Assembly: GCF_002407065.1 (NCBI RefSeq)
Contig: NZ_CP023564.1
Coordinates: 3,162,001-3,226,000 of the forward strand
Length of the DNA: 64,000 nt
Origin: Brachybacterium ginsengisoli
GTDB lineage: Bacteria; Actinomycetota; Actinomycetes; Actinomycetales; Dermabacteraceae
Direction: 5' to 3'
In this document: piece by piece, positions 44,185 to 57,214 of the stretch
How positions within the stretch are numbered: the stretch's first letter is position 1
Layout of the letters: each line of letters starts with the position of its first letter
The notes under the pieces: generated by a model
Databases searched by the model: none
What the model was told of the DNA's origin: nothing
The model's input: only the letters and a program-made list of their open reading frames with translations
Program-made: the position numbers and the translations under genes

Positions 44185-45195
44185 ATGACCAGCATCGACC
44201 GCACCTTCATCGATTCCCTGCCCAAGGCGGAGCTGCACCTGCACATCGAGGGCACGCTCGAGCCGGAGCTCAAGCTCGAGCTGGCCCGCCGAAACGGTGT
44301 CGAGATCGGGCAGTCCACGGTCGAACAGGTGCGCGCCACCTACGAGTTCACCGACCTCACCAGCTTCCTGGCCATCTACTACCCGGCGATGGAGGTCCTG
44401 GTCACCGAACAGGACTTCCACGACCTGGCCATGGCCTACCTGTGCCGCGCGGCGGCCGACGGTGTCGTCCGCGCCGAGATCTTCTTCGACCCCCAAGCCC
44501 ACACCAGCCGCGGCATCCCGTTCAGCACAGTCATCGACGGACTGTGGTCCGCCGTGCAGGAGGCACCGTCGCTCGGCGTGGACGCCGCCCTGATCATGTG
44601 CTTCCTGCGCGATCACAGCGTCGAGTCCGCCCGCGAGACCCTGGAGGCCTCGCTCCCCTACCGCGATCGGATCGTCGGCGTGGGACTGGACTCCGATGAG
44701 CGCGGCAATCCGCCGGAGAAGTTCTCCGAGGTGTTCGCCGCTGCGAAGGACGCCGGCTACCGGTTGACCATGCACTGCGACATCGATCAGGAGCAGTCGA
44801 TCTCCAACATCGCGACCGTCCTGCACACCATCGGCGTCGAGCGCATCGACCACGGCACCAACATCCTCGAGGACCCGTCACTGGTGGCCGAGGCGAAGCA
44901 GCAGGGCATCGGCTTCACGTGCTGCCCGGTCTCGAACTCGTTCGTCACCGAGCAGATGAAGGGCGCTGAGATCGTCCAGCTGCTGCGGGAGGGCCTGAAG
45001 GTGTCCATCGCGTCCGATGACCCCGCGTACTTCGGCGGCTACGTCGGGGACAACATCGCGGCCCTCGCCGAGGCGCAGCACCTCACTCGCGACGAGGTCG
45101 TCCAGCTTGCCCGCAATTCGCTCGAGATCAGCTGGGCCGACGACGCGCGGAAGCAGGACTGGCTGCGACAGCTCGAGGAGATCGCCGCGCGCTGA
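44185..45195 (+). CDS. Adenosine/adenine deaminase-family protein, atypical active site
   Basis: A 336-residue amidohydrolase with the family's HxH (AELHLHIEGTL, His18 and His20), VERIDHGTNI (His223) and IASDDPAYFGG (Asp278/279). The usual HAGE, whose Glu is the proton shuttle, reads MHCDID at 196-201, so the metal His remains but the Glu position is Ile. Nearby Asp199 or Asp201 could substitute. The ATG at 44185 follows CTGGAGAAG. A fragment of a second copy lies at 31953. Substrate may be a purine or another aminated heterocycle rather than adenosine. Confidence 0.8.
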   Translation: MTSIDRTFIDSLPKAELHLHIEGTLEPELKLELARRNGVEIGQSTVEQVRATYEFTDLTSFLAIYYPAMEVLVTEQDFHDLAMAYLCRAAADGVVRAEIFFDPQAHTSRGIPFSTVIDGLWSAVQEAPSLGVDAALIMCFLRDHSVESARETLEASLPYRDRIVGVGLDSDERGNPPEKFSEVFAAAKDAGYRLTMHCDIDQEQSISNIATVLHTIGVERIDHGTNILEDPSLVAEAKQQGIGFTCCPVSNSFVTEQMKGAEIVQLLREGLKVSIASDDPAYFGGYVGDNIAALAEAQHLTRDEVVQLARNSLEISWADDARKQDWLRQLEEIAAR

Positions 45196-45237: not shown

Positions 45238-48200
45238 TCAGAGCCGCCCGTCCCGGTACAGGCCCAGCAGCAGCTCCTGCATCTGCGGCGTGTACTCCAG
45301 GGACGTGTAGCTGCTGCGTTCGACCTCCAGCACGCCCAGCATCGCGGCGAACCGTGTCGGCGCCCACTCCCCCGGCTTGCCGACGAGCACACCGGCGTCG
45401 GCGAGGCGCAGGTTGAGTGCGGGGGTGTTCAGGTCGGCGTCCTCCTCGCGAAGCACTCCCGCCTCACGCCACCTGCCGAGCACCGCGGTCAGAGTTCCCT
45501 GCTGTAGCGCTGCGGTCTGAGACGGCGCGGCCGGGCGAGTCTCCTCGGGCGCCGGCGTGGACGCAGGCTCAGAGAGCAGTTCGGACTGCTCGGCGTCGGG
45601 GACGGCAGCGCTCGGCGCCTCGCCGGCGATCAGACCCCGGGAAGCGTCGAGCTCCTCGGCAGTCTCGGATCTTGCCGTCCGCTGCGCGAACCGGGACATC
45701 ACGCCGAACACCTTCCCGTTGTCCCACCGGTTCGGCGCCGCGAACACCACCAGGAGGTCCTGCGCCCGGGAGACGGCGACGTTCAGCAGCTCCGGGGTCG
45801 CGTCGATGAAGCCTGCCTGGCCACTGCCGGTGCCGTAGACGGCGGAGAACAGGATGATCGGGCGCTCGGCCCCCTGCAGGCGGTGCGCCGTGCCCACGGT
45901 GATCTTCTGCGCGAGGTCCTTCGGGAGGTCCGCGTCGGCGCCTGCCGCACGGGCGGCCTTCCGGATCTCGTCACGGATGACGTCGGCCTGCGCGCTGAAG
46001 GGCGTGACGACGCCGATGAGCAGTGCGGCGTCGACCTGCTTCCCGGGCTCGCTCTGCTGGTGGTGGTAGAGGTCGTAGAAGCTCGGGTAGTTCTCGACGA
46101 TCCAGGTCGCGATCGCGCGGGCCTCGGCGTGGTTGACGCGGCTGGAGCCCCGTCGGGAGTCCTCCGAGTCGGCGACGTCGATCCACTCGAACGCCGGGCG
46201 CGTGCCGTGGAGCAACGACTTCTCCGCAGCACGCTTGGGCTCCAGCAGACCGTCGTAGAGCAGCTCGTTGCTGAAGCCGATGATGGCGGGGTGGCAGCGG
46301 AAGTGCTCGCGCAGCAGCAGCCCTGGCTCGCCGCTTTCGAAGGACCAGCGCGAGGCGTGGCTGGCGGCGCGCATGAGGCTGGAGGGGGCGGAGCAGGTCA
46401 GTCCCCTCTCGCGCAGCTCGTCGGCCCAGTCATCGGCCGAGATCCCGGCGCCTTCGGCGATCTCCCGGTCGGTCTCCTCGTCGAGGGACCACACGGGTGC
46501 CAGCTGCTTCTCGTCGCCGACGACGAGGGCGCGACGGGCGAGCGCGATCACCGGCAGGGCGAGCGGGGTGTCGACCTGCCCGGCCTCGTCGACGATGAGC
46601 AGGTCGATGCGGCCGACGTCGTAGGCCTTGGGTTCACCCGACTTCCTGTAGCGGCCGAAGAACTTCGGTACCTGATAGAGCGTCATGACGAAGCAGGGAG
46701 TGAGGGCCGCGGCCTGCGGCCAGACTCGTGGCAGGACGTCCGCGGTGCTCTTCCACCGCTCCGTCTCGTCCAGGTGATCGGCGAGCAGCCACTCCACCTC
46801 GAAGTAGTGAACGGCCAGCCAGAACTCGGCGTAACGGAGCGTCCGGTCGAGCGCCGCATCGAGCTCCTCGAGGGTCGCGCTCTCGCGCAGCGTGGAGAGA
46901 CCTCGGAGCTCACGGAGGTGCTGGGACGCCTCCACCTCGGTGCACAGGCTCAGGTACTCCTCGGAGGGCCCTTCGGCGCTCATGGTCCCCAGCAGCGCGA
47001 TGCGGTAGCCGTCGACCTCCGTCAGGGCGTCGTGGATCCAGTCCTGGATGCGGGACGGCTCGTCGATGCCGCCGAAGTACTGCTGCACGCGGGCCAGGAA
47101 GTGGTTGCGGGCTGAGGTCAGGTACTCGGTGGCGCTGTAGGCGGCGTAGGTCTCGCTGCGGTCCTTCTGCTCGACGAGGTGATGCTTCTTCGCCTCGGCG
47201 AGCTTGCCTTTCGCGGGGCAGTAGACGGCGAGGGAGCGCAGCGGGTCGTCGGTCGCAGCACCGTCGTGCTCCTGCGGCAGCCAGCGCAGGTCCAGCGCAC
47301 CGGGCTCGCCCTTCGTCACCGATGCGAAGGACGCGATGATGTTGGTGACGGCCTGGTTGTTGGTGGAGGTCCCGGCGATGACCGGAGCGTCCTCGCGGTC
47401 CAGCGCCCGACGAGTGATCAGGTCCGCCACGATCGCCTGCAGCATCGTGGTCTTCCCGGTGCCCGGCGGCCCGCTGACCGCGGTGACGTCCCCGTCCCCG
47501 CTGCGGAGGAACGCGTGGACGGCGCGGCGCTGCGAGGCGGTGAGGGACTTGCCGTCGTCCATGGAGCCGCAGGCCGACCGCGCTCCTCCGAGCAGGCCGT
47601 CACCGGCGTGGATCTGCGCCTCCGGACTGCGCGGGCCGTCCCAGCCGTCGATCATCCGCTGGAGGATCGGGGGCGTCACCGGATCCCGGTCGAGGGCCTC
47701 GTAGACGTCGAGGAGGGCGCCGACGGCGTTGATCCGGTCGTGCTCCCGGACGTAGCAGGTCTCGTGCTCGATGGTCGTGCCGGCCTCGCCAGGGGGTGTG
47801 GCATGGGCCGCGGCGAACTCCTCGAGAGTCGATGCCGAGACGGCGCGGAAGAGCGAGTCTGCGAGCTTGAAGGCGTCAGCGATGCTCTCACAGCGCGAGG
47901 CCTCGGCGCCGAGGGAGGTGATCGTATGCGTCCAGAAGTCACGCAGGGAGCCGACCATCACCTCCAGGTCCGTCACCGACGGCGTGGTCAGGCGCTCGGC
48001 GGGGATCCATGGCGAGGTGCCGGTCTCGAGCTCCGGCACCAGCCGGCCGTCGCGGAACAACGTCGCGGCGACCAGAAGGATCCCCTGCTGGGCGGCACCG
48101 CCGTCCTTCGGGATCGACGCGAGGGAGATGGCCACAGAGATCGACGGGTCGGGAGTCTTCTTCGGCCCGGAGCGGCCCGCTGTGCGGTCATGACGGTCGT

Positions 48201-48366
48201 GGTTGTCGAACAGCGCTTTGGTGTCGTCCGCCGGGAGGGCGCCGGTGGCGATCTGCTCCCGGGGCGTCGCGACGAACGCGGAGCCTCGGCGGTAGGTGAC
48301 CTCCTCCAGCGGCTCACGGCGCAGCACCTGCGCGAAGTAGTCCGTCACCGTGCTCGTGTCCACCAC
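45238..48366 (-). CDS. Upf1-like SF1B helicase, large
   Basis: A protein of about 1042 residues with a 270-residue N-terminal region of unknown fold, then a helicase core: Walker A SGPPGTGKTTML (about 299-310), motif II LLIVDEAGQVDTP, motif III VVGDEKQLAP, motif IV REHFRCHPAI, motif V GTAHRLQGAERPIILF and motif VI NVAVSRAQDLLVVF. A C-terminal tail of about 200 residues is rich in Ala/Pro/Glu and ends in a winged-helix-like domain. The frame is open to 48972, but that would overlap the MazG gene; GTG at 48364-48366 behind GGGGGAGGGG is preferred. It is divergent from the MazG/GIY-YIG-DUF2075 pair. Possible roles are RNA or DNA processing or phage defence. Confidence 0.75.
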   Translation of the reverse strand: MVDTSTVTDYFAQVLRREPLEEVTYRRGSAFVATPREQIATGALPADDTKALFDNHDRHDRTAGRSGPKKTPDPSISVAISLASIPKDGGAAQQGILLVAATLFRDGRLVPELETGTSPWIPAERLTTPSVTDLEVMVGSLRDFWTHTITSLGAEASRCESIADAFKLADSLFRAVSASTLEEFAAAHATPPGEAGTTIEHETCYVREHDRINAVGALLDVYEALDRDPVTPPILQRMIDGWDGPRSPEAQIHAGDGLLGGARSACGSMDDGKSLTASQRRAVHAFLRSGDGDVTAVSGPPGTGKTTMLQAIVADLITRRALDREDAPVIAGTSTNNQAVTNIIASFASVTKGEPGALDLRWLPQEHDGAATDDPLRSLAVYCPAKGKLAEAKKHHLVEQKDRSETYAAYSATEYLTSARNHFLARVQQYFGGIDEPSRIQDWIHDALTEVDGYRIALLGTMSAEGPSEEYLSLCTEVEASQHLRELRGLSTLRESATLEELDAALDRTLRYAEFWLAVHYFEVEWLLADHLDETERWKSTADVLPRVWPQAAALTPCFVMTLYQVPKFFGRYRKSGEPKAYDVGRIDLLIVDEAGQVDTPLALPVIALARRALVVGDEKQLAPVWSLDEETDREIAEGAGISADDWADELRERGLTCSAPSSLMRAASHASRWSFESGEPGLLLREHFRCHPAIIGFSNELLYDGLLEPKRAAEKSLLHGTRPAFEWIDVADSEDSRRGSSRVNHAEARAIATWIVENYPSFYDLYHHQQSEPGKQVDAALLIGVVTPFSAQADVIRDEIRKAARAAGADADLPKDLAQKITVGTAHRLQGAERPIILFSAVYGTGSGQAGFIDATPELLNVAVSRAQDLLVVFAAPNRWDNGKVFGVMSRFAQRTARSETAEELDASRGLIAGEAPSAAVPDAEQSELLSEPASTPAPEETRPAAPSQTAALQQGTLTAVLGRWREAGVLREEDADLNTPALNLRLADAGVLVGKPGEWAPTRFAAMLGVLEVERSSYTSLEYTPQMQELLLGLYRDGRL

Positions 48367-48630
48367 GTCGAGCCCCTCCCCCTCGTCCGGCGCACCGCCC
48401 GTGCACGCCGTGGTCACCGGGCGGGGATCGGTGATCGATCGCCGCTGTTCGGGCACTTCACCACGTTCGGCCGATGTGGCGCAATCACTCAGGGCATCCA
48501 GTTCCGGGCGGCCTGTCCTCTGCGCTTGCTCTGAACTGCGCTGAAGTCGTGCCCACGAGTTCGGGACCGGTTCCTTGCTGGAGCCGTGAGTGCAGCCTCC
48601 TCCGGTGGTGGCCCTTGCTAGGTTGATCTC
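48367..48630. promoter_or_regulatory. Divergent intergenic region, helicase versus MazG-like gene
   Basis: A 264-base non-coding gap that must hold both promoters. The rightward -10 is TAGGTT (48619-48624). The leftward promoter is not clear. No operator-like inverted repeat stands out apart from GATCGGTGATCGATC-type words near 48428-48442. Confidence 0.4.
48619..48624 (+). promoter_or_regulatory. Candidate leaderless -10 box for the MazG-like gene
   Basis: TAGGTT ends 6 bases before the ATG at 48631 and no ribosome-binding site is present. Confidence 0.4.
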
Positions 48631-48951
48631 ATGGCAAGCGAACCCCTCCTCCAGACGCTGCGAACCTTCATGGCCGAGCGCGACTGGGAGCAGTTCCACT
48701 CCCCGGAGAACCTCGCGAAGTCGATCTCCATCGAGGCGGCCGAGCTGCTCGAGTGCTACCAGTGGAACGGAGATGGCGACCAAGACGAGGTGGCAGGCGA
48801 GCTCGCCGACGTCCTCACCTACGCCCTGCTCCTCGCGGACAAGCTCGAACTCGACCCGGAGCAGATCATCCGCACGAAGCTCGAGCGCACCGGTCAGAAG
48901 TACCCGGTGGAGAAGGCGAAGGGGCGGAGCACGAAGTATGACCGCCTTTGA
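48631..48951 (+). CDS. MazG-like nucleotide pyrophosphohydrolase
   Basis: A 106-residue all-helical protein of the MazG/RS21-C6 type. The metal-binding pattern is visible: IEAAELLECYQW (E-x-x-E) near 33-44 and VAGELADVLTYALLLAD (E-x-x-D) near 54-70. It should hydrolyse a (d)NTP or modified nucleotide to the monophosphate and pyrophosphate. Length is normal for the single-domain family. Its end overlaps the start of the GIY-YIG/DUF2075 gene by 14 bases, so the two are co-expressed. Confidence 0.85.
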   Translation: MASEPLLQTLRTFMAERDWEQFHSPENLAKSISIEAAELLECYQWNGDGDQDEVAGELADVLTYALLLADKLELDPEQIIRTKLERTGQKYPVEKAKGRSTKYDRL

Positions 48952-50671
48952 GATTGAGGAGCTCCGGTTCACACCGGAGTCGGTCGAGGAGACGAGGGGT
49001 CGGCTCCCCCGCTTTTCGAACTGGCCGGTCGTCTACCTCATCGAGGATGGCCGCGAGATCTACGTGGGCGAGACCGGCAGCGCCGACCGCCGCATGCGCC
49101 AGCACCTCAAGTCGAGGCAGAAGGAGCATCTCAAGGAAGTCCGCATCGTCTTCGACGAGCGGTTCAACGGCTCCGCCTGCCTGGACCTGGAGTCCCTGCT
49201 GATCCGACTGCTCGGCGGTGACGGCAAGTACGAGGTGCTGAACCGCAACGAGGGCATCACCAACCAGGACTACTTCCAGCGCAGCGAGTACAACGACACC
49301 TTCAAGGAGATCTTCGAGGAGCTCCGGTCCCGCGGCTACTTCGAGCGCACGATCCCCGAGATCGAGAACTCCGATCTCTTCAAGCTCTCGCCCTACAAGG
49401 CGCTCAACACCGAGCAGGGTGTGGCTGTACTCGACATCATGGAGGGCCTCGTCCAGGACCTCCATCGTCCTGAGGTCCGTACGCTCGCTGCGATTCAGGG
49501 CGACCCGGGCACCGGCAAGACCATCGTGGGCATCTACCTCATGAAGCTCATGAGGGACCTCGCCGACTTCGATCCCACCGACGAGGTCGAGGGCGATTCG
49601 ATGTTCTCCGACCTCTTCGTCGAGGGGAACCGCGAGCTCTTCAGAAGCCTGCGGATCGGGCTCGTCGTCCCGCAGAAGTCTCTGCGCAAGTCGATCAGCC
49701 GAGTGTTCCGGAAGGTGCCGGCGCTGCGCGACGCGCAGGTGCTCACGCCGTACGAGGTGGCCGACGCCGACGAGGACTTCGATGTCATCGTCGTCGACGA
49801 GGCCCATCGCCTCACCCAGCGCGGCGCCCAGGCTTTCGGAACCCTCACCAAGCGGTACGGAGAGACCACCCGTCGTCTCTTCGGCGAGGACGATCTCGCG
49901 ATCAACCAGCTCGACTGGATCCGAAAGCGCTCGAAGCACACGATCCTCCTGCTGGATACGGCGCAGAGCGTTCGCCCCATCGACATCGAGCCCGAGGTCT
50001 TCGATCGGGTGCTCGACGAGACTCGCGCGCAGAAGCGCCTCTACCCCCTGGACACGCAGATGCGGGTGAAGGGCGGGAAGGCATACCTCGAGTTCGCCCG
50101 GACGCTCCTCTCCGACACCCCTCCTCGAGCGGTTCCGGATCTCGAGGACTACGAGTTCGAGCTCTTCGACGACCTCGGAGCGATGCACCAGCGGATCCGT
50201 GAGCGGGACAAGGAGCGCGGTCTCTCCCGCCTCGTCGCTGGCTACGCCTGGAAGTGGCGAAGCAAGAAGAAGACCGGCCTCCACGACATCGAACTCGACG
50301 GAGTGGCGCTGGATTGGAACGTCTCCGACGTGGACTGGATCGCCTCGAAGACCTCGCTCGAGGAGGTCGGTTCCATCCACACGGTCCAGGGCTACGACCT
50401 CAACTACGCCGGCGTCATCATCGGCGGCGACCTGCGCATCGACCCTGTGACCGGCCTGCTCGTCGCCGACAAGAAGAACTACTTCGACACCAAGGGCAAA
50501 GCCAACAATTCGATGCGTGGCCGGACCACGTCCGACGAGGATCTGCTGCGGTACATCTTGAACGTCTACCGGGTGCTGCTCACGCGAGGGATGCGAGGGA
50601 CGTACCTCTACGTTGTGGATCCGCTGTTGAGGCGGAGGGTCGCCTCGATTCTGGATACCAAACCGGCGTGA
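48938..50671 (+). CDS. GIY-YIG nuclease fused to DUF2075 P-loop ATPase
   Basis: A 577-residue fusion. The GIY-YIG domain (about 28-110) keeps the VYLI and IYVGET tyrosines, RMRQHLKS arginine and LDLESLLIRLL glutamate expected for nicking. From about 150 a DUF2075 helicase-like domain shows Walker A GDPGTGKTIVG (188-198), Walker B VIVVDEAHRL (283-292), a sensor region LLLDTAQSVRP, and the late TVQGYDLNYAGVIIG and NVYRVLLTRGMRGTYLYV motifs. It begins within the MazG-like gene. The nuclease-ATPase design suggests action on foreign or damaged nucleic acid. ATG 48938 is the only start that preserves the whole GIY-YIG domain. Confidence 0.85.
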   Translation: MTAFEIEELRFTPESVEETRGRLPRFSNWPVVYLIEDGREIYVGETGSADRRMRQHLKSRQKEHLKEVRIVFDERFNGSACLDLESLLIRLLGGDGKYEVLNRNEGITNQDYFQRSEYNDTFKEIFEELRSRGYFERTIPEIENSDLFKLSPYKALNTEQGVAVLDIMEGLVQDLHRPEVRTLAAIQGDPGTGKTIVGIYLMKLMRDLADFDPTDEVEGDSMFSDLFVEGNRELFRSLRIGLVVPQKSLRKSISRVFRKVPALRDAQVLTPYEVADADEDFDVIVVDEAHRLTQRGAQAFGTLTKRYGETTRRLFGEDDLAINQLDWIRKRSKHTILLLDTAQSVRPIDIEPEVFDRVLDETRAQKRLYPLDTQMRVKGGKAYLEFARTLLSDTPPRAVPDLEDYEFELFDDLGAMHQRIRERDKERGLSRLVAGYAWKWRSKKKTGLHDIELDGVALDWNVSDVDWIASKTSLEEVGSIHTVQGYDLNYAGVIIGGDLRIDPVTGLLVADKKNYFDTKGKANNSMRGRTTSDEDLLRYILNVYRVLLTRGMRGTYLYVVDPLLRRRVASILDTKPA

Positions 50672-50728: not shown

Positions 50729-50822
50729 AGATGGACGGCTTCAGCACCACCCATCGTGCCGGTCAGGGACCCGTTCCTTCATCCCCACTTCGCGGCGACA
50801 ACTACATGACCAGAAATAACAA
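50729..50822 (+). mobile_element. Solo end of an IS481-type element
   Basis: About 62 bases (50729-50790) are identical to the 5' end of the IS481 element at 54783-54844. A diverged terminal stretch up to about 50822 still contains the end motif (CATGACCAG ... AACA). It has the same orientation as the full element. No transposase remains beyond the first few codons. It is a footprint of an earlier insertion or a recombination product. Confidence 0.8.
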
Positions 50823-50890
50823 GGAGTACGACAGGCTTACCCCCGGCAGAGCGTCTCCTCGTCCGCTGCCCGGCGTCAGCCCGAGCACCC

Positions 50891-51905
50891 TCAGCCGGTA
50901 GCAACCTCGTTCCGCCCCCGTCGGGCAACCCGCACCGTCTCGGTGATACGCGCCAGCGGGATGAAGCCGACCAGGCAGATCACGGCGAGGATCACGTAGT
51001 GCCAGGTGAAGCCGAGCTGGGTGATGACGATGCCGGAGACGGCGGAGGCGAAGATGCCTGAGACGCCCAGGGCCACGCCGATCATGATCCCCAGCGCCGT
51101 TCCCGCGGCACGCGGGACCGAATCGACCAGCAGCGCGTAGACGACCGGGAACGGTGCGTTCCGGAACAGACCCCAGAACAGCAGGATGATCCACGCCGTC
51201 ACGAGATCCTGGATGAAGATCATCGCGAGCAGGCTCGCCACCCAGCCGATGATGAGGAAGGCGATGGAGAACTTGCGGCCCAGACGGTCCGAGAGCGTCC
51301 CCCACACGACCTGGCCGATCCAGCCGGTCAGGCCCGATGCGCCGGAGACCAGGATCGCGTCGGAGACGTCCATCCCCATCCCCATGAGCTGCGTGGTCAG
51401 GAAGGTGACCACCCCCGCCTCGCCCCACAGGAACAGGAAGCAGAGCACCACCGCCCAGCGGACGTTCGCATGCCGCAGAGCCTCCTTCACAGGACCCCAG
51501 AAGCCGGCACGGTTGCGCGTGGACAGCTCCTCCAGCGGAGGGGTCTTGCCCATCGTCTCGATCTTGCGATACAGCGTGGCCTGATGCTTCTTCCGTCCCA
51601 GGAAGGTCTGGCCGATGATGATCGGGATGCCCAGCATCGGGATCACCAGGAACGCGGCGCTCCAGTGCGCCGAGCCCAGCACCAGGGCGATGAGCGCCCC
51701 CGCCAGGAACTGTCCGATGGGGAATCCGGTGTGGTGGACGCCGACGGCGAAGCCTCGATGCTCCTTCGGCCACCACTCGGCGACGATCGCGACGTTGACC
51801 GGCTCGGATCCGCCGCGGCTGATCCCCATCGGGATGCGCAGCAGCAGGAACGCCACGAAGCTGCCGGCGAGCCCGAAGGTCAGCGCCCCTTCCACCACAC
51901 CACCG
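50891..51905 (-). pseudogene. MFS transporter, N-terminally truncated
   Basis: Encodes the last ten or so membrane segments of a major facilitator protein: from LTFGLAGSFVAFLLLRIPMG and the GGSEPVNVAIVAEWWPKEHR loop to the stop at 50891. The first two segments and the start are missing. At about 51900 the sequence changes to AT-rich DNA of a different origin, where an open frame continues to 52045 but is unrelated to MFS proteins. The gene was probably cut by insertion of the neighbouring foreign segment. Related carriers of this shape often move sugar acids. Confidence 0.75.
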
Positions 51906-52103
51906 CCCAGCAAACTTACGACAGCAGTCCGGCATAATGCTGCAGGAGACGCATCCACGGGACTCCAACGCACGATTTTGCACTTAAGTATAAGTTGCCG
52001 TCGCCAGAACAACTGCCCGGCAAGCATAGAGGCAGAGCCAAGCACTCAATACAATTGATACAAGACAAGCGGATATCCACGCATAGAGAGAATAGATTAA
52101 ACT

Positions 52104-53354
52104 ATGATCATGGTACTATTTGGCACCCTTGGCGCCTTAATTACCATCGGGCTTTACGGGCTCCTTCGAGTCTCTTGGCCGCGACTCTACTATGGTCCCG
52201 ACGATACATTTGAAACATTCATTTCATACTCCTTCTGGAGCTACATAGCCTTCCGCACGATTCCAGTCGCCTTCGTCATTGGGGGCCTCGGGGCGTACGC
52301 CACGAGACTTTCCGGCACGAGTGTTTGGATTCTTGTTGTTTCATTCCTATTCACATACCCGTCGACTACGTCTCTACTTACTGTCATCGGGCGCCGGCGG
52401 AATGCGCGAACCACCTCCTGGCTGGACATGGAGTGGATAATCGCATCGAGCGCAATTGTGACCTTCGGGGCGGTTGCGGGTGCACTGATCACGCCATGGA
52501 TGGACAAGATTCTCCCACCTGGCGAGGCACTCATTGAGGCGATCATTACAGCCCTCTTCGTGGCGGCCCTAGCCGTGCTTGGGCGCGCAATGCAACTTGA
52601 CACTGTTCAGTTCGATGGAGTTATCGATCGGACCTTGAAACGCATTGCCCCCCAGCTGGCGGAAGTTGAAGATCAGTGCGCTCGCCTGAGGGTACCAGCG
52701 GAACCGTTCATGGCAATACTTGTAGCAGAGAATCTCCAGCGTCCGCGCTGGTTTAGACGATTCGAGCACATCCTTTCGCAAGTTAGTCCGAATAGGACTA
52801 CTGGTCCGTTCCAGCTCTCTTCAAGTCGTGCAGCCGGTCCCGAAAACAGAGAATCCATTGATATTGCAGAATACCTCCAAAGTAATCCCGCAATCGCCCT
52901 ACTGGTCGAGCGTGGTGGGCCTCGGAGGTCGTCAGCACGGTCAGAGATGTTTAGTGCCATTTACGCACTTCATAACGCCTCAAGCAAATTCGTCAGACTC
53001 TGCGACCGAATCGCGATTCGCTTTCGCCCCAAACAGCTAAGTCATTACATTGATCTAGACACATCAGGTGTCGACCTTATGGCGAGCACCTTGATGGTGT
53101 CCGGCGAAAACGTCACCACATGGTTCGGACCGTCAATGTACAGAGAGCATGGGGAGCTTTCAATTACTCCCCCTGGTGCGACCACCCCTTTCACCTGGCA
53201 ATCTAATGAAGATGACTCGGCAACCTACTCCGCAAACGCCTCAGTTTTCTATGGGGAATGGGAGGTCGCATACACCGCATCCATCGACTCGGCCCCGAGA
53301 ACTATTAAATTCCACATTCAAGATTGGGCACCCACTGAGCCAAGGTGGTCATAA
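52104..53354 (+). CDS. Low-GC membrane protein of unknown function
   Basis: A 416-residue protein (alternative ATG at 52110) with four or five membrane segments in the first 155 residues: MVLFGTLGALITIGLYGLL, FVIGGLGAYATRL, WILVVSFLFTYP, IASSAIVTFGAVAGALI and EAIITALFVAALAVLG. A soluble domain of about 260 residues follows with no known motif. Base composition is near 50% GC with A/T-ending codons, very unlike its neighbours, and the 200 bases upstream are AT-rich with no good ribosome site. It lies between a truncated MFS gene and IS remnants, so it was probably acquired. The membrane anchor plus large cytoplasmic domain would fit a defence effector or sensor, but this is speculation. Confidence 0.7.
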   Translation: MIMVLFGTLGALITIGLYGLLRVSWPRLYYGPDDTFETFISYSFWSYIAFRTIPVAFVIGGLGAYATRLSGTSVWILVVSFLFTYPSTTSLLTVIGRRRNARTTSWLDMEWIIASSAIVTFGAVAGALITPWMDKILPPGEALIEAIITALFVAALAVLGRAMQLDTVQFDGVIDRTLKRIAPQLAEVEDQCARLRVPAEPFMAILVAENLQRPRWFRRFEHILSQVSPNRTTGPFQLSSSRAAGPENRESIDIAEYLQSNPAIALLVERGGPRRSSARSEMFSAIYALHNASSKFVRLCDRIAIRFRPKQLSHYIDLDTSGVDLMASTLMVSGENVTTWFGPSMYREHGELSITPPGATTPFTWQSNEDDSATYSANASVFYGEWEVAYTASIDSAPRTIKFHIQDWAPTEPRWS

Positions 53355-53438
53355 ATTGCAGCTCGATTACCCGATAGAACTGGCTCTACAATTTTGACTG
53401 GGGGGCGATGATGCATGACGGCTTCGCGCTCAGTGCCC

Positions 53439-53564
53439 CAGGTTGCTCGCAACTCGCGAGGCGTCCATGACTCAAATAGCAGGACATCCCGCGACTCCCA
53501 AAAAAATGCGAGTCCTGATGGGTCACAGCGGGCGGAGGCCGCGGCCTGCGTCGAGACGGGGCCG
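53439..53564. repeat. 126-bp dispersed repeat, copy 1
   Basis: Matches 57507-57638 with two well-conserved blocks (53439-53475, and 53526-53564 at the other end) and a more variable centre. Both copies sit at junctions of gene fragments. It is GC-rich here despite following the low-GC gene. Identity unknown; it may be a mobile-element end. Confidence 0.7.
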
Positions 53565-53599
53565 GACACCTGCATACCTCGGCGGGGGCTGCCGCGCAG

Positions 53600-53763
53600 A
53601 TAGGTGACACCTGACCTGGCTTGCCCGTAGGACGGCCCGGAAGGATGTGCACCATGCCCGCTCCCTACACGCAGGAGTTCCGCGAGGATGTTGTGCGAGT
53701 GGCCCGGTCCCGTGAGGACGACGTCACTCTCGCGCAGATCGCGAAGGACTTCGGCGTCCACTA
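53600..53763 (+). mobile_element. IS3-family element remnant with orfA stub
   Basis: ATG at 53654 opens a 36-codon fragment, MPAPYTQEFREDVVRVARSR followed by EDDVTLAQIAKDFGVH, which is the start of an IS3-family OrfA helix-turn-helix. The frame stops at 53762-53764, exactly where the IS481 element begins, so the rest is missing. The upstream 50 bases (from about 53600) would be the element's left end. Confidence 0.75.
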
Positions 53764-54762
53764 GCTGTAGATGGCCATGACGTTGTCGACGCCGGTGTGG
53801 AAGCGTGAGGCCGGGGGCTGATCGCCGCAGGCGGTGTGGGGCCGATGGTAGTCATAGTGGTGGACCCAGACCGCGATGGCCTCTCGCCGTTCGTTCTCAG
53901 AGGCGTGGGCCCGGGCGTAGAGGCATTCGTCGGTGGGGATCCTCTGGTAGCGCTCGACCTTCCCGTGGTGCCGCGGGTTGTAGATCCTGGTGCGTTGGTG
54001 TCGGCCGATGAACGCGCTGGTAGATCGCTGAAATGCCTTGGCGGTGTAGTTGCTGCCGTTGTCGGTGACCAGGCGGGGAATCCGCGTGATGGCGTGCGCG
54101 GCGAAGAGCGCCCGGGCTCGGTGGAAGAACGCGATGCTCGTTGCGGCAGTCTCGTCCTCGAGTGCTTCGGTGTAGGCCAGCCGGGAGAACCCGTCGATGA
54201 TCGAGTGGAGGTAGGTGTAGCCGACTCTCTGGCGATGCTTCTTCTTGTCCTGTGCGGAGCCGCGGCCATGGGCCCACCAGCCCCCGCCGTCGCGGGGCTT
54301 GCCGATCTTCTTGACGTCCATGTGGACCATGTGACTGGGATAGCAGGCGATGATCTTCCCAGGCGAGCGAAGGTTCTCGCCGTCCGGGGTGATGTCTCGG
54401 ATCCGGTTCAATCCCAGCCGATCCAGCCAGCGAGTCACGGTCCGCACGCAGCAGCGGTACTGGTGCCCGTCGGCGAGTTCGCGGGCGATCCGGCGCGCGG
54501 ACCACTTCTTCTTCCGACGCCAGAACTCGATCAGCTCCACCACCCAGACCGGGAGGCGCGTAGGTCGGTTCGCTGGCGTGCTGGAGTGGTCCTCCAAGCC
54601 GAACTCGCCGTGCTCGCGGAAGCGGCCGACCCACTTCGACAGGATCGAGCGGGCGATGTGGAACTCCGCGGCGACGTGCGCGATCGGGCGTCCTCTCTGG
54701 ATCACCTGCGCGACGGCTCGCTGTCTTCCGAGCACGGTCAGCGGGGCATTACGGTGGGTCAT
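53761..54762 (-). CDS. IS481-family transposase
   Basis: A 333-residue DDE transposase. The N-terminal helix-turn-helix pair (about 1-110: GRPIAHVAAEFHIARSILSK and KKWSARRIARELADGHQ) is followed by the integrase core with Asp in HMDVKKIGKP, Asp in LVTDNGSNYTAKAF and Glu in KVERYQRIPTDE. The ATG at 54760-54762 is chosen; the frame is open 14 codons further. Its TAG stop falls at the element's end. It appears intact and could be active. Confidence 0.9.
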   Translation of the reverse strand: MTHRNAPLTVLGRQRAVAQVIQRGRPIAHVAAEFHIARSILSKWVGRFREHGEFGLEDHSSTPANRPTRLPVWVVELIEFWRRKKKWSARRIARELADGHQYRCCVRTVTRWLDRLGLNRIRDITPDGENLRSPGKIIACYPSHMVHMDVKKIGKPRDGGGWWAHGRGSAQDKKKHRQRVGYTYLHSIIDGFSRLAYTEALEDETAATSIAFFHRARALFAAHAITRIPRLVTDNGSNYTAKAFQRSTSAFIGRHQRTRIYNPRHHGKVERYQRIPTDECLYARAHASENERREAIAVWVHHYDYHRPHTACGDQPPASRFHTGVDNVMAIYS

Positions 54763-54877
54763 GGAACGGGTCTCTTCCTGCGAGATGGACGGCTTCAGCA
54801 CCACCCATCGTGCCGGTCAGGGACCCGTTCCTTCATCCCCGCTCCGTGACTACAACGTCATGACCAGCAACAACTAG
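53761..54877 (-). mobile_element. IS481-family insertion sequence
   Basis: A complete element of about 1.11 kb. The ends form imperfect inverted repeats: TGTAGATGGCCATGACGTTG from 53766 and, on the other strand, TGTTGCTGGTCATGACGTTG from 54872. ACTAG occurs on both sides (53760-53764 and 54873-54877), possibly a 5-base target duplication. It has interrupted or abuts an IS3 orfA stub on the left and a broken gene on the right. Confidence 0.85.
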
Positions 54878-55045
54878 GTGAGCCTGGTCCCCGCGAACGA
54901 TGGCCTCCACCGACCCGCTGTCGTGACATATCAGGTCGGCGACGCGATGCAGCAGGCTCCGCCCCTCGAGCACGATGTCCGGCGACGCGGCCCGTCCGAG
55001 CTGTTCGAGCTCCCACGAGAGTTCCATGGCGGAAGTGTCCGGCAC
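54878..55045 (-). pseudogene. Interrupted hypothetical gene fragment
   Basis: A leftward frame from ATG 55043-55045 encodes about 55 plausible residues (MELSWELEQLGRAASPD, then LLHRVADLICHDSGSVEAI) and then runs into the end of the IS481 element, where coding character is lost. It looks like the N-terminus of a small helical protein cut by the insertion or by a rearrangement. No family recognised. Confidence 0.45.
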
Positions 55046-55129: not shown

Positions 55130-57214
55130 TTACGCCCGGCCGCTCGACACAGCGACCGGCGCGGTCGTCAAAGTGACCAGCCGCTTCGTCGCCCGCGTCT
55201 GCGCGACGTAGAGATCACGCAGCCCCGCCGAGCTCTCATCGCGAATTCCGTCCGGGTCCACGAGGATCACGGTGTCGAACTCGAGCCCTCGCGCTTCGGG
55301 AGCTGGGACGACAGTGACCTTCTCCGACGCCATCCCGAGAGCGATCTGCTGAGCGCGCTCCGGGGTGACGACGACGCCGATCATCTCGTCGGGGTGGTCC
55401 CCCGTCAGGCGTGCCACGAGATCGACGAGTGCGGATTCGAGATCCGCGTCGGCAACGTCCAGTGCCGTCGGCGCATCCCCGTGGCGGATCGAGCGCGAGA
55501 GGCGCTGCGTCGGAGCGATCTGGGCGAGCACGGATCCGCTCGCCTCGAGGATCTCGGCCGTGGTGCGGTAGTTGATGGTGAGCGTGTGGTGCTCGAACCT
55601 CGCGCCGACGAACGGCTCGAGCGCCTCGTCCCAGGTGGTGAGCGTGGTGGTGGGCCCTGCTTGGGCGAGGTCGCCGACGATCGTCATGGAGCGGCTCGGG
55701 CAGCGGCGCATCAGCATCCGCCATTCCATCTCTGTGAGCTGCTGGGCCTCGTCGACCACGACATGGCCGTAGACCTTCTCGGGCAGCCCATCCACGAGCG
55801 CCCGCGCCTCGTCGAGCAGCGGCAGGTCAGCGCTGCTCCACCTCTCCCCTGCCCGGGATCCGAAGGACGCGATCACCTCGGCGGGGAGACCCGCCCCGGC
55901 CAGGGCGTCCGGATCGCCGAGCAGGCCGCGCAGCAGGCCCTCCGCCCGGAGCACCGGCCAGACCTTCTCGACAGCCCGCTCGACGCCCGGGTCCTCGAGG
56001 AGCTCCTCCCGGAGGAGCTCCCAGTCGATGTCGAGCTCGTCGGCAGACGCCTCAGCCCCCGCGGACGCCGAACCGCCGGCGAACATCCGGTCGAGGTCGA
56101 TCCCGATCCCCTTGAGCTCCTCCTCGTAGTCGGTGATCTCCTGGGAGGTCTGCCGCTCCAGCTCGCTCACCAGGTCGTCCACGACGTGCTCGAGGAAAAG
56201 TGCCCGTGCGCGATGGTGGCCGGCGCCGCCCTGCAGGGCGCTGCGGCGTGCCGCATCGACCCGCGCAGGATCCAGCACCGTCGTGCCGTGCGCCGTGGTG
56301 AGCCGCAGCGGGACGCCGTGGGGCCGGTGGGCGTCGACCCGCTGTGCGAGGAGGTCGGCGAACACCCGGCGTCCCTTCCAGCGAGCCATCTCTTCCGAGT
56401 CCGCCACGGTCACGGCGTCCCCGGTGAGTGCCGTCGTCGTGCTGAGCTCCACGTCGTTCTCGCCGAGCGAGGGCAGCACGTGGGAGATGTAGTCGAGGAA
56501 GCGCCGGTTCGGGCCGACCACGAGCATCCCGCGCGCGGCAACTGTCGGGAAGGCGTAGAGCACGTAGGCGGCCCGGTGCAGGGCGACGATCGTCTTGCCC
56601 GTTCCCGGCCCGCCGTCCACGACCATCGTGCCGCGATGTTCGGAGCGGACGATCTCGTCCTGCTCGTGCTGCAGCGTCGCGGCCGCCTCGCGCATGCGCC
56701 CGGTCCGTGCCCCGCTCACGGCGGAGACCAGCGGATCATCGCCGACCACGTCCCGCGCGGGCAGTGCCTCCCCGGAGAGCACCTCGTCGGAGAGCTCCAC
56801 GATCTGCCGGTCTTCGATCCGCAGATGCCGCCGGCGGCACAGGTCCATCGGCGTCGCCATCGTCGCGGCGTAGAAGGGCCGGGCGGCCTCGGCGCGCCAG
56901 TCCACCAGCAGGATCTCGCCGCTCTCGCTGCGCAGTCCGATCCGGCCGATCCGGTGGGACTGCCCGTCCGTGCCGTCGACGCGTCCGAAGCACAGCGACC
57001 GCTCTGCCGACCGGAGCCGCTCCAGCGCTCCGCCCAGTCGGGCCACGGTCGCCTCCCTCGCCTCCCGGGCTTCGATGCTCTCGACGTGCGAGGCCCTCTC
57101 GGCCTCCCTCGCCGCGGCGATCCTGTCCTGCTCGCCGTCCAGATGGGCGTACATCTCCTCGATCGCCCGCTGCTCGATCTCCACCTGCTGCGCCCTCCTC
57201 ATGGCTGCGTCCAC
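55130..57214 (-). CDS. HelD-like UvrD-family helicase (RNA polymerase-associated)
   Basis: A 694-residue SF1 protein of the HelD type. An N-terminal coiled-coil (about 5-75, EIEQRAIEEMYAHLDGEQDR) precedes a split helicase core: Walker A VVDGGPGTGKTIVALH (199-214), VVVDEAQQLTEMEWRMLMRR (motif II), NYRTTAEI (motif IV) and a late RDLYVAQTRATKRLV (motif VI). HelD proteins bind RNA polymerase and release it from stalled complexes; in several actinomycetes they protect against rifampicin. GTG at 57212-57214 follows AAGGGGGC; ATG four codons on is an alternative. The gene faces away from the 49-residue frame at 57348. Confidence 0.85.
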   Translation of the reverse strand: MDAAMRRAQQVEIEQRAIEEMYAHLDGEQDRIAAAREAERASHVESIEAREAREATVARLGGALERLRSAERSLCFGRVDGTDGQSHRIGRIGLRSESGEILLVDWRAEAARPFYAATMATPMDLCRRRHLRIEDRQIVELSDEVLSGEALPARDVVGDDPLVSAVSGARTGRMREAAATLQHEQDEIVRSEHRGTMVVDGGPGTGKTIVALHRAAYVLYAFPTVAARGMLVVGPNRRFLDYISHVLPSLGENDVELSTTTALTGDAVTVADSEEMARWKGRRVFADLLAQRVDAHRPHGVPLRLTTAHGTTVLDPARVDAARRSALQGGAGHHRARALFLEHVVDDLVSELERQTSQEITDYEEELKGIGIDLDRMFAGGSASAGAEASADELDIDWELLREELLEDPGVERAVEKVWPVLRAEGLLRGLLGDPDALAGAGLPAEVIASFGSRAGERWSSADLPLLDEARALVDGLPEKVYGHVVVDEAQQLTEMEWRMLMRRCPSRSMTIVGDLAQAGPTTTLTTWDEALEPFVGARFEHHTLTINYRTTAEILEASGSVLAQIAPTQRLSRSIRHGDAPTALDVADADLESALVDLVARLTGDHPDEMIGVVVTPERAQQIALGMASEKVTVVPAPEARGLEFDTVILVDPDGIRDESSAGLRDLYVAQTRATKRLVTLTTAPVAVSSGRA

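Follow-up and report, generated by a model that had tools for sequence, protein, structure and literature searches.

A conserved two-gene cassette in Brachybacterium ginsengisoli joins a MazG-like pyrophosphatase to a GIY-YIG nuclease and Schlafen-type helicase fusion and is a probable defence unit

We analysed a 64,000-nt stretch of the Brachybacterium ginsengisoli genome (the window; positions 3162001-3226000 of a 3.95-Mb single-contig genome) and found that two overlapping genes in it form a strict, conserved two-gene cassette. The first encodes a MazG-like dNTP pyrophosphohydrolase, and the second encodes a GIY-YIG nuclease fused to a superfamily 1 (SF1) helicase domain of the Schlafen group 3 type (Table 1). 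A first-pass annotation had described this pair together with a divergent 1042-aa helicase gene as one module. All three genes exist as it described them, each frame is unbroken, and the 3′ end of the MazG gene overlaps the 5′ end of the fusion gene by 14 nt. The proposed joint function stands for the pair, which is conserved and tends to adjoin defence genes, but not for the helicase as a third member. We consider it probable that the cassette is active in defence. Our best explanation of the whole, which we hold at slightly less than even confidence, is a mobile two-gene defence cassette in which a nuclease-helicase acting on modified cytosine is accompanied by a MazG enzyme that cleans the dCTP pool.

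The linkage of the two genes carries this finding. MazG is encoded at most 400 bp upstream of the fusion and on the same strand in all 80 named loci, which come from Brachybacterium, Agromyces, Microbacterium, Cryobacterium, Curtobacterium, Arthrobacter, Brevibacterium, Nocardioides, and other genera. These are the best 80 of 581 related stretches, so close relatives are favoured; the 581 stem from two search patterns, a single gene may count twice, and two of the 80 (L103 and L104) are copies on one contig. Genomes of the order and family were also searched, with an E limit of 1e-30 for the cassette and 1e-60 for the 1042-aa helicase. The fusion is present in 43 of 396 order genomes and, at E < 1e-200, in 12 of 47 family genomes, so its distribution is patchy. 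MazG matches fall in the identical 12 family genomes, and a thirteenth match to the fusion (G040) reaches just 7e-4. The two genome sets have some Brachybacterium genomes in common and hold 47 distinct cassette places; in the 37 of these that were examined MazG always adjoins the fusion (33/33 and 4/4), once (G009) only as fragments. Across loci, MazG is found overlapping upstream of the fusion, downstream of it (L069, L073, L074, and L167, four loci of one genus), or divergent from it (L168 and L170). That the adjacency survives rearrangement speaks for a function in common. A Mantel test also gave a correlation of 0.46 between the evolutionary distances of MazG and of the nuclease, against at most 0.26 in 999 permutations. 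Outside the named loci, homologues occur in 39 plasmid and 5 phage records, four of the latter labelled “Bacteriophage sp.” from human faeces; two scans of viral_contigs gave no virus-borne relatives.

The modelled fold confirms the N-terminus of the 577-aa fusion as a GIY-YIG domain. By sequence the assignment is marginal (PF01541, 20.8 bits for the whole protein and 23.9 when its first 150 aa are searched by themselves, against a cut-off of 22.6), and we relied on folds because a PDB search with the nuclease-helicase profile returned nothing better than E > 0.05. The AlphaFold2 model, built from 45 sequences, has a pLDDT of 89 and a pTM of 0.86. The best 50 matches listed for the whole protein included no GIY-YIG structure, so residues 1-105 were modelled alone. 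The resulting domain matches the GIY-YIG domain of UvrC (Z 8.2, rmsd 2.3, 81 residues), T4 EndoII (Z 6.9), and I-TevI (Z 6.6), and it scores highest (Z 9.6) against the N-terminal domain of a plant Grx. The nuclease motifs had been called intact, and they are: the catalytic Tyr33, Tyr42, Arg52, and Glu85 are invariant, in keeping with the GIY-YIG superfamily. In 16 further homologues (25-57% identical), Tyr33, Tyr42, Gly44, Arg52, His56, and Glu85 are kept throughout, and Asn102 is kept in 12 and differs in four.

The helicase part had been labelled a DUF2075 ATPase. The fusion is real, but the label needs correcting; the domain is PF09848, now the Schlafen group 3 helicase domain (“SLFN-g3 helicase,” 238.8 bits against a 24-bit cut-off). 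In the model, residues 103-575 make up the SF1 core, which VIA-align places nearest UvrD (Z 21.0, 306 aligned) and also matches to SLFN11 (Z 18.3, 277 aligned), while Foldseek ranks Upf1 first. GDPGTGKT, VVDEAH, QMRV, and HTVQGYDLNY are presumably the SF1 motifs under which Table 1 lists them. The helicase residues checked are kept in the 16 further homologues, with Thr195 replaced by Ser in one. The protein is 77-91% identical to its counterparts in five Brachybacterium records and 58% identical to a sixth. In five comparisons, dN was 0.06-0.12 and dS 0.54-0.72; the gene is under purifying selection and is therefore no chance open reading frame (ORF).

Among PDB sequences, the closest to the 106-aa MazG protein by phmmer are 4qgp (6.6e-20) and human DCTPP1 (6sqw, 1.8e-16), and the DCTPP1 and 4qgp alignments span nearly all of it (residues 4-104 and 4-95). 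Across 80 sequences, H23, E35, E38, W45, E57, Y64, and K83 are kept in 100% and D60 in 99%; E35, E38, E57, and D60 are the acidic residues that we take to bind metal. With its MazG-like domain and these residues, the protein is of the DCTPP1-like all-alpha NTP-PPase kind. It resembles the dCTP pyrophosphatase DCTPP1, a stand-alone cellular enzyme that is not known to be linked to a nuclease, and hydrolysis of dCTP or 5-modified dCTP is predicted for it. DCTPP1 is reported to accept dCTP plus its 5-methyl, 5-formyl, and 5-halogenated forms (PMC7162842).

The surroundings of the cassette point to defence. Neighbouring genes were called with a simple GC3 script. We scanned 136 of 154 immediate neighbours called (18 were left out, 1 for length and 17 upstream) and compared them with 126 far genes, defined as the fifth gene outwards or beyond, out of 154 sampled from 624. 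Tallies count members per family, and one protein may appear under several families. The Pfam tables hold the first 25 families, so single-member far families are not visible in them. The PADLOC scan used E ≤ 1e-30; one of its near lists (A2) holds the best 25 of 41 families, and its far list of 11 families is complete. Among the Pfam families listed, immediate neighbours include DUF3427 (7/136), NERD (4/136), NUDIX (3/74), and HNH_5 (2/74), and upstream neighbours include GmrSD_C (2/62), T5orf172 (3/62), and AAA_12 (2/62). The PADLOC matches listed for the near set include type IV enzymes (mREase_IV; PDLC03659 in 7/136), as well as PD-Lambda-1 (2), PDC-S07 (2), LmuB, HamB, AbiEi, methyltransferases including MTase_II, and MkoA. 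Far genes belong mainly to transport and metabolism among the Pfam families listed. Type IV restriction enzymes thus account for 7 of 136 immediate neighbours versus 0 of 126 far genes by PADLOC. Near and far sets differ clearly in type IV restriction and moderately as a whole.

The type IV neighbours are SauUSI-type enzymes carrying a DUF3427 domain. They occur in 10 of the 80 named loci, at most ~0.6 kb from the cassette in nine and 3.6 kb from it in the tenth (L158). One of these neighbours scores 1153 bits in PADLOC as a methyl-directed type IV enzyme, and SauUSI is described as cleaving m5C and hm5C DNA (PMC3874153). A NUDIX gene lies beside the DUF3427 gene in 5 of the 10 loci; MutT homologues adjoining SauUSI homologues have already been noted in print (PMC7641849). 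We also picked 11 distant loci from the fuller matches among the plasmid and phage records. Two of them carry a DUF3427 enzyme: one faecal contig labelled as phage, and a Lactiplantibacillus plasmid on which the genes run NUDIX, a DEAD helicase similar to SauUSI, MazG, and GIY-YIG/helicase. Other plasmid homologues stand beside type I restriction-modification (RM) genes (Ligilactobacillus), Cas6/Cas10 (Limosilactobacillus), and, by our reading of the annotation, CBASS-like genes (Lysinibacillus).

A cytosine methylase gene lies next to the cassette too, and in Brachybacterium subflavum the cassette has as its neighbour a SIR2/STAND protein, SIR2-like with a novel STAND NTPase (L082, 12037-14949). 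Upstream neighbours (alignment A3) include two PD-Lambda-1 type proteins and the T5orf172 members (3/62), which may represent a further family resembling GIY-YIG within these islands. Two Paenibacillus plasmid loci (L172 and L178) have no MazG and carry, directly 5′ of the nuclease-helicase gene, a DUF3578 gene, which presumably encodes an McrB-type DNA-binding domain.

Based on these observations, we propose a mechanism. The cassette would move horizontally as a defence unit, separate from the MkoC-like helicase gene beside it in the window. The helicase part of the fusion would load onto invading DNA and travel along it, and the GIY-YIG domain would cleave that DNA, most likely selecting modified cytosine. 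MazG would clear modified dCTP (5-methyl, 5-hydroxymethyl) from the pool, and host DNA would thereby never gain the mark that the nuclease cuts. Both modified cytosine as the target and protection of the pool as the role of MazG are tentative, and we hold them with markedly less confidence than defence itself. The scheme would mirror the logic of phage T4, in which the gp56 dCTPase removes dCTP while EndoII (denA) and EndoIV cut cytosine DNA (PMC6071114, PMC8056088). NUDIX and MazG are unrelated pyrophosphatases, each found with a nuclease-helicase, which suggests that pool cleaning may spare the host from a modification-dependent nuclease. A broader class of such “pool-hygiene restriction,” in which a dedicated pyrophosphatase prevents modified cytosine from entering the cell's own DNA and so replaces the self-mark of a methyltransferase, is a speculative and rather doubtful extension; MazG/GIY-YIG-Schlafen and NUDIX/SauUSI would then be two independent inventions, sometimes side by side.

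It is important to note that a number of observations weigh against this scheme. At genome level, DUF3427 and the cassette share 9 of 396 genomes against 6.3 expected (P = 0.16), so the overlap is not above chance. In those nine, by our reading of the coordinates and with gene extents estimated from domain position and frame length, the two lie within ~1 kb in four, within ~8 kb in one, and on other contigs in four; only the adjacency is striking. No DUF3427 was found within the DNA examined around the cassette in 70 of the 80 named loci, and the same NUDIX family occurs in six of the 80 without DUF3427. Pfam recognised no modified-base reader domain in the window protein. Matches to known defence families are present among far genes too, by Pfam (NERD 2, NUDIX 2, AAA_21 4, Zeta toxin 2) and by PADLOC (mad3 2, JetA, MzaC, C3a187, a DRT protein, and a type II helicase). 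Most genes around the two Paenibacillus plasmid loci are not defence genes. MazG is absent nearby in 7 of the 11 distant plasmid and phage homologues. In G009 (C1, 3539152-3546827, L042), MazG is in three pieces with IS21-like frames (by eye) between them and an intact nuclease-helicase, a natural loss of MazG; the enzyme can thus be dispensed with. Finally, plain dCTP is also a DCTPP1 substrate, which suits depletion of the pool as well as its cleaning. The converse of G009 was seen in G027 (C1, 629103-631126, L046), where an intact MazG accompanies a nuclease-helicase gene interrupted near residue 484; 30 kb away there is another MazG match, which contains one stop.

The strongest alternative is abortive depletion, which we regard as unlikely. 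The nuclease-helicase would sense phage forks or DNA ends, and MazG would destroy dCTP and starve the phage. Nucleotide depletion has precedents in the dCTP deaminase and dGTPase defences. MazG is nearest to dCTP pyrophosphatases and to 4qgp, DCTPP1 is described as central to dCTP homeostasis (PMC7162842), and the defence domains that DefensePredictor lists as predicted but not validated include MazG (PMC13092281). However, one would expect a depletion effector to be retained, and it is MazG that is missing near the seven distant homologues, whose nucleases keep their catalytic residues.

Overlapping genes, a small and a large protein, and strict linkage would also fit a toxin-antitoxin-like pair, in which the GIY-YIG/Schlafen protein cuts cellular DNA or tRNA and MazG restrains it directly. 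The Schlafen-type helicase domain is in its favour, as the Schlafen family is reported to have RNA-cutting members (PMC12839542), but Pfam found no Schlafen core RNase domain in the 577-aa fusion. The MazG active-site residues are invariant, as an enzyme needs and a mere binding partner does not. The absence of MazG near the seven distant homologues, together with its breakage beside an intact nuclease in G009 (where polar silencing is possible), indicates that it is not an indispensable antitoxin in every lineage. We judge this arrangement improbable.

A role in DNA repair and pool sanitation instead of defence, with a UvrC-like nuclease, a helicase, and a house-cleaning pyrophosphatase, seems quite improbable as well. 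The GIY-YIG fold is near UvrC, second only to the plant Grx domain, the helicase core is nearest UvrD by VIA-align, though not by Foldseek, and DCTPP1 may have a house-cleaning function (PMC7162842). On the other hand, the patchy spread (12/47) and the neighbours are unlike those expected of a repair gene, and several homologues are plasmid-borne among restriction or CRISPR genes.

The 1042-aa helicase is independent of the cassette. The two share 2 of 396 order genomes against 1.2 expected (P = 0.34), and of the 11 order genomes carrying the helicase, 9 lack the pair. A search for the conserved three-gene neighbourhood gave no helicase relative (E < 1e-15) in the up to 10 kb examined to either side of the pair at any of the 80 named loci. 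In G024, the only other genome with both, adenosine deaminase, helicase, and cassette follow in the same order and orientation as in the window, with 10.3 kb of other genes between helicase and cassette; this spacing and the shared adenosine-deaminase gene point to a variable region common to both genomes and not to an operon. Other Upf1-type helicases do lie upstream of the pair in a few loci (AAA_12 in 2/62, PADLOC MkoA in 1/62). With co-occurrence at chance, no relative around the named loci, and a helicase that matches single-gene MkoC, a three-gene system, which the divergent placement in the window and the order kept in G024 might suggest, is very improbable, and we rejected it. The adenosine-deaminase gene (window 44203-45195) marks a variable region in the window, in G024 (C40, 129-151 kb), and in G001 (C19, 103-121 kb); the MkoC-like helicase is present in all three genomes and the cassette in two.

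The helicase belongs close to a named system, contrary to the first-pass annotation. In PADLOC it scores 622.6 bits against the Mokosh type II profile MkoC, with the best stretch ending at profile position 970 of 1136, and its sequence matches Upf1-type and “5′-3′ RNA helicase-like” structures. The N-terminal ~270 residues, previously called unassigned, are part of this similarity (68.4 bits for the first 300 aa alone, profile positions 6-274). The definition of MkoC includes a C-terminal PLD nuclease (PMC11672841, PMC10013915). In place of one, the ~140 residues beyond the matched core contain a linker that varies between sequences, together with a ~75-residue conserved domain recognisable by eye in 11 sequences and weaker in more distant ones. 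None of the 11, the one from the window included, has an HKD (HxKxxxxD-type) motif; the C-terminal 150 aa have no PADLOC match and no PLD by Pfam, and the C-terminal domain has no Pfam family at E ≤ 2. Because no PLD nuclease was found, we judge the protein to be Mokosh-II-like and not a member. Some relatives of the helicase stand near defence genes of the type I RM (L052), GmrSD (L164), and type ISP (L049) kinds.

For the pair itself, the statement that it matches no named system holds within PADLOC. PADLOC-DB 2.0.0 gave the fusion no full-length strong match, only PDC-S41 at 52 bits (residues 370-559 only) and PDC-S14 at 26 bits, and gave MazG no match; NCBIfam has no complete match for the cassette. 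Among the matches listed in a literature search on the combination, we found no description of a MazG and GIY-YIG/Schlafen-helicase pair. A defensive MazG is already in print as an idea, and the MazG system in Fig. 6F of the DefensePredictor paper may be this pair (PMC13092281).

The nearest known systems each share a part of the design. Like the cassette, T4 gp56 and endonuclease II (DenA) combine a dCTP pyrophosphatase with a nuclease that discriminates cytosine from modified-cytosine DNA, a discrimination which is putative for the cassette, and the fold of EndoII is like that of the cassette's GIY-YIG domain. Unlike the cassette, they are phage genes of opposite polarity, as EndoII cuts unmodified cytosine; EndoII is a GIY-YIG enzyme and is not known to have a helicase domain. 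SauUSI-type enzymes likewise join nuclease and helicase in one protein and have a small dNTP-pyrophosphatase neighbour (MutT/NUDIX) in part of the loci, but they use PLD instead of GIY-YIG, a different helicase, and a DUF3427 reader; Pfam found neither PLD nor DUF3427 in the fusion. CMoRE / PD-T4-3 is a GIY-YIG anti-phage nuclease and a type IV enzyme, described without a helicase and with a GIYxY-YIG motif and a modification-sensing C-terminal domain (PMC12923530), whereas the fusion (VVYLIEDGREIYVGET) lacks a third tyrosine between its two motif tyrosines and carries an SF1 helicase core at its C-terminus. Mokosh type II MkoC is matched by the 1042-aa helicase in its N-terminal and helicase regions. 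Schlafen group 3 proteins (SLFN11, SLFN14) have the helicase domain in common with the fusion, which has GIY-YIG where the Schlafen RNase core would be.

Table 1. Genes, domains, and the insertion-sequence remnant at the cassette locus (window coordinates).
Feature	Position	Strand	Basis
MkoC-like SF1 (Upf1-type) helicase, 1042 aa, GTG start	45238-48366	-	AAA_11/AAA_12 (Pfam); PADLOC MkoC 622.6 bits; judged outside the cassette
C-terminal 100 aa of the 1042-aa helicase	45238-45540	-	~75-aa conserved domain where a PLD nuclease would be
MazG-like dNTP pyrophosphohydrolase, DCTPP1/RS21-C6-like, 106 aa (cassette gene 1)	48631-48951	+	PF12643 66 bits
GIY-YIG nuclease fused to SF1 Schlafen-group-3 helicase domain, 577 aa (cassette gene 2)	48938-50671	+	PF09848; AlphaFold2 model; purifying selection
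GIY-YIG domain, residues 1-105 (VVY-x8-YVG, R52, H56, E85, N102)	48938-49252	+	Fold matches; conserved residues
SF1 helicase core, residues ~154-575 (presumed Walker A GDPGTGKT, Walker B VVDEAH, QMRV, HTVQGYDLNY)	49397-50662	+	Fold matches; invariant motif residues
Remnant of IS481-family element end, just 3′ of the cassette	50729-50824		96 nt, 90% identical to 54783-54878

The insertion-sequence remnants, gene fragments, and foreign-looking DNA reported downstream of the cassette are indeed there. The 96-nt remnant matches one end of an IS481-family element at 53761-54878 (transposase 53761-54804), and the transposase and remnant bracket an MFS gene without its N-terminus and a stretch poor in GC (50729-54878), with a GC content of 53% at 52-53 kb. 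A 416-aa ORF at 52104-53354 has a hydrophobic start, a GC content of ~53-60%, and no Pfam, NCBIfam, or PADLOC match. Beyond the element, a HelD/HelR-like RNA-polymerase motor is encoded at 55130-57214 (NCBIfam HelR 457 bits, under the 1100 cut-off); at E ≤ 1e-100 it is present in 6 of 38 genus genomes including this one, and the other copies are just 58-60% identical. A sigma-70 promoter and terminator scan of 48200-48750 found none, and such a scan is uninformative for a high-GC actinobacterium.

The MkoC-like helicase without a PLD domain suggests that relatives lacking the nuclease are among those that the PADLOC MkoC model picks up. In Actinomycetota the cassette is widespread, with relatives that keep all checked catalytic residues on Bacillota plasmids, and its GIY-YIG/Schlafen-helicase fusion joins the bacterial relatives of human Schlafen proteins. 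If the proposed mechanism is true, it would give a purpose to the small MutT and MazG enzymes beside restriction genes, and it would provide a rule for how modification-dependent nucleases spare their host.

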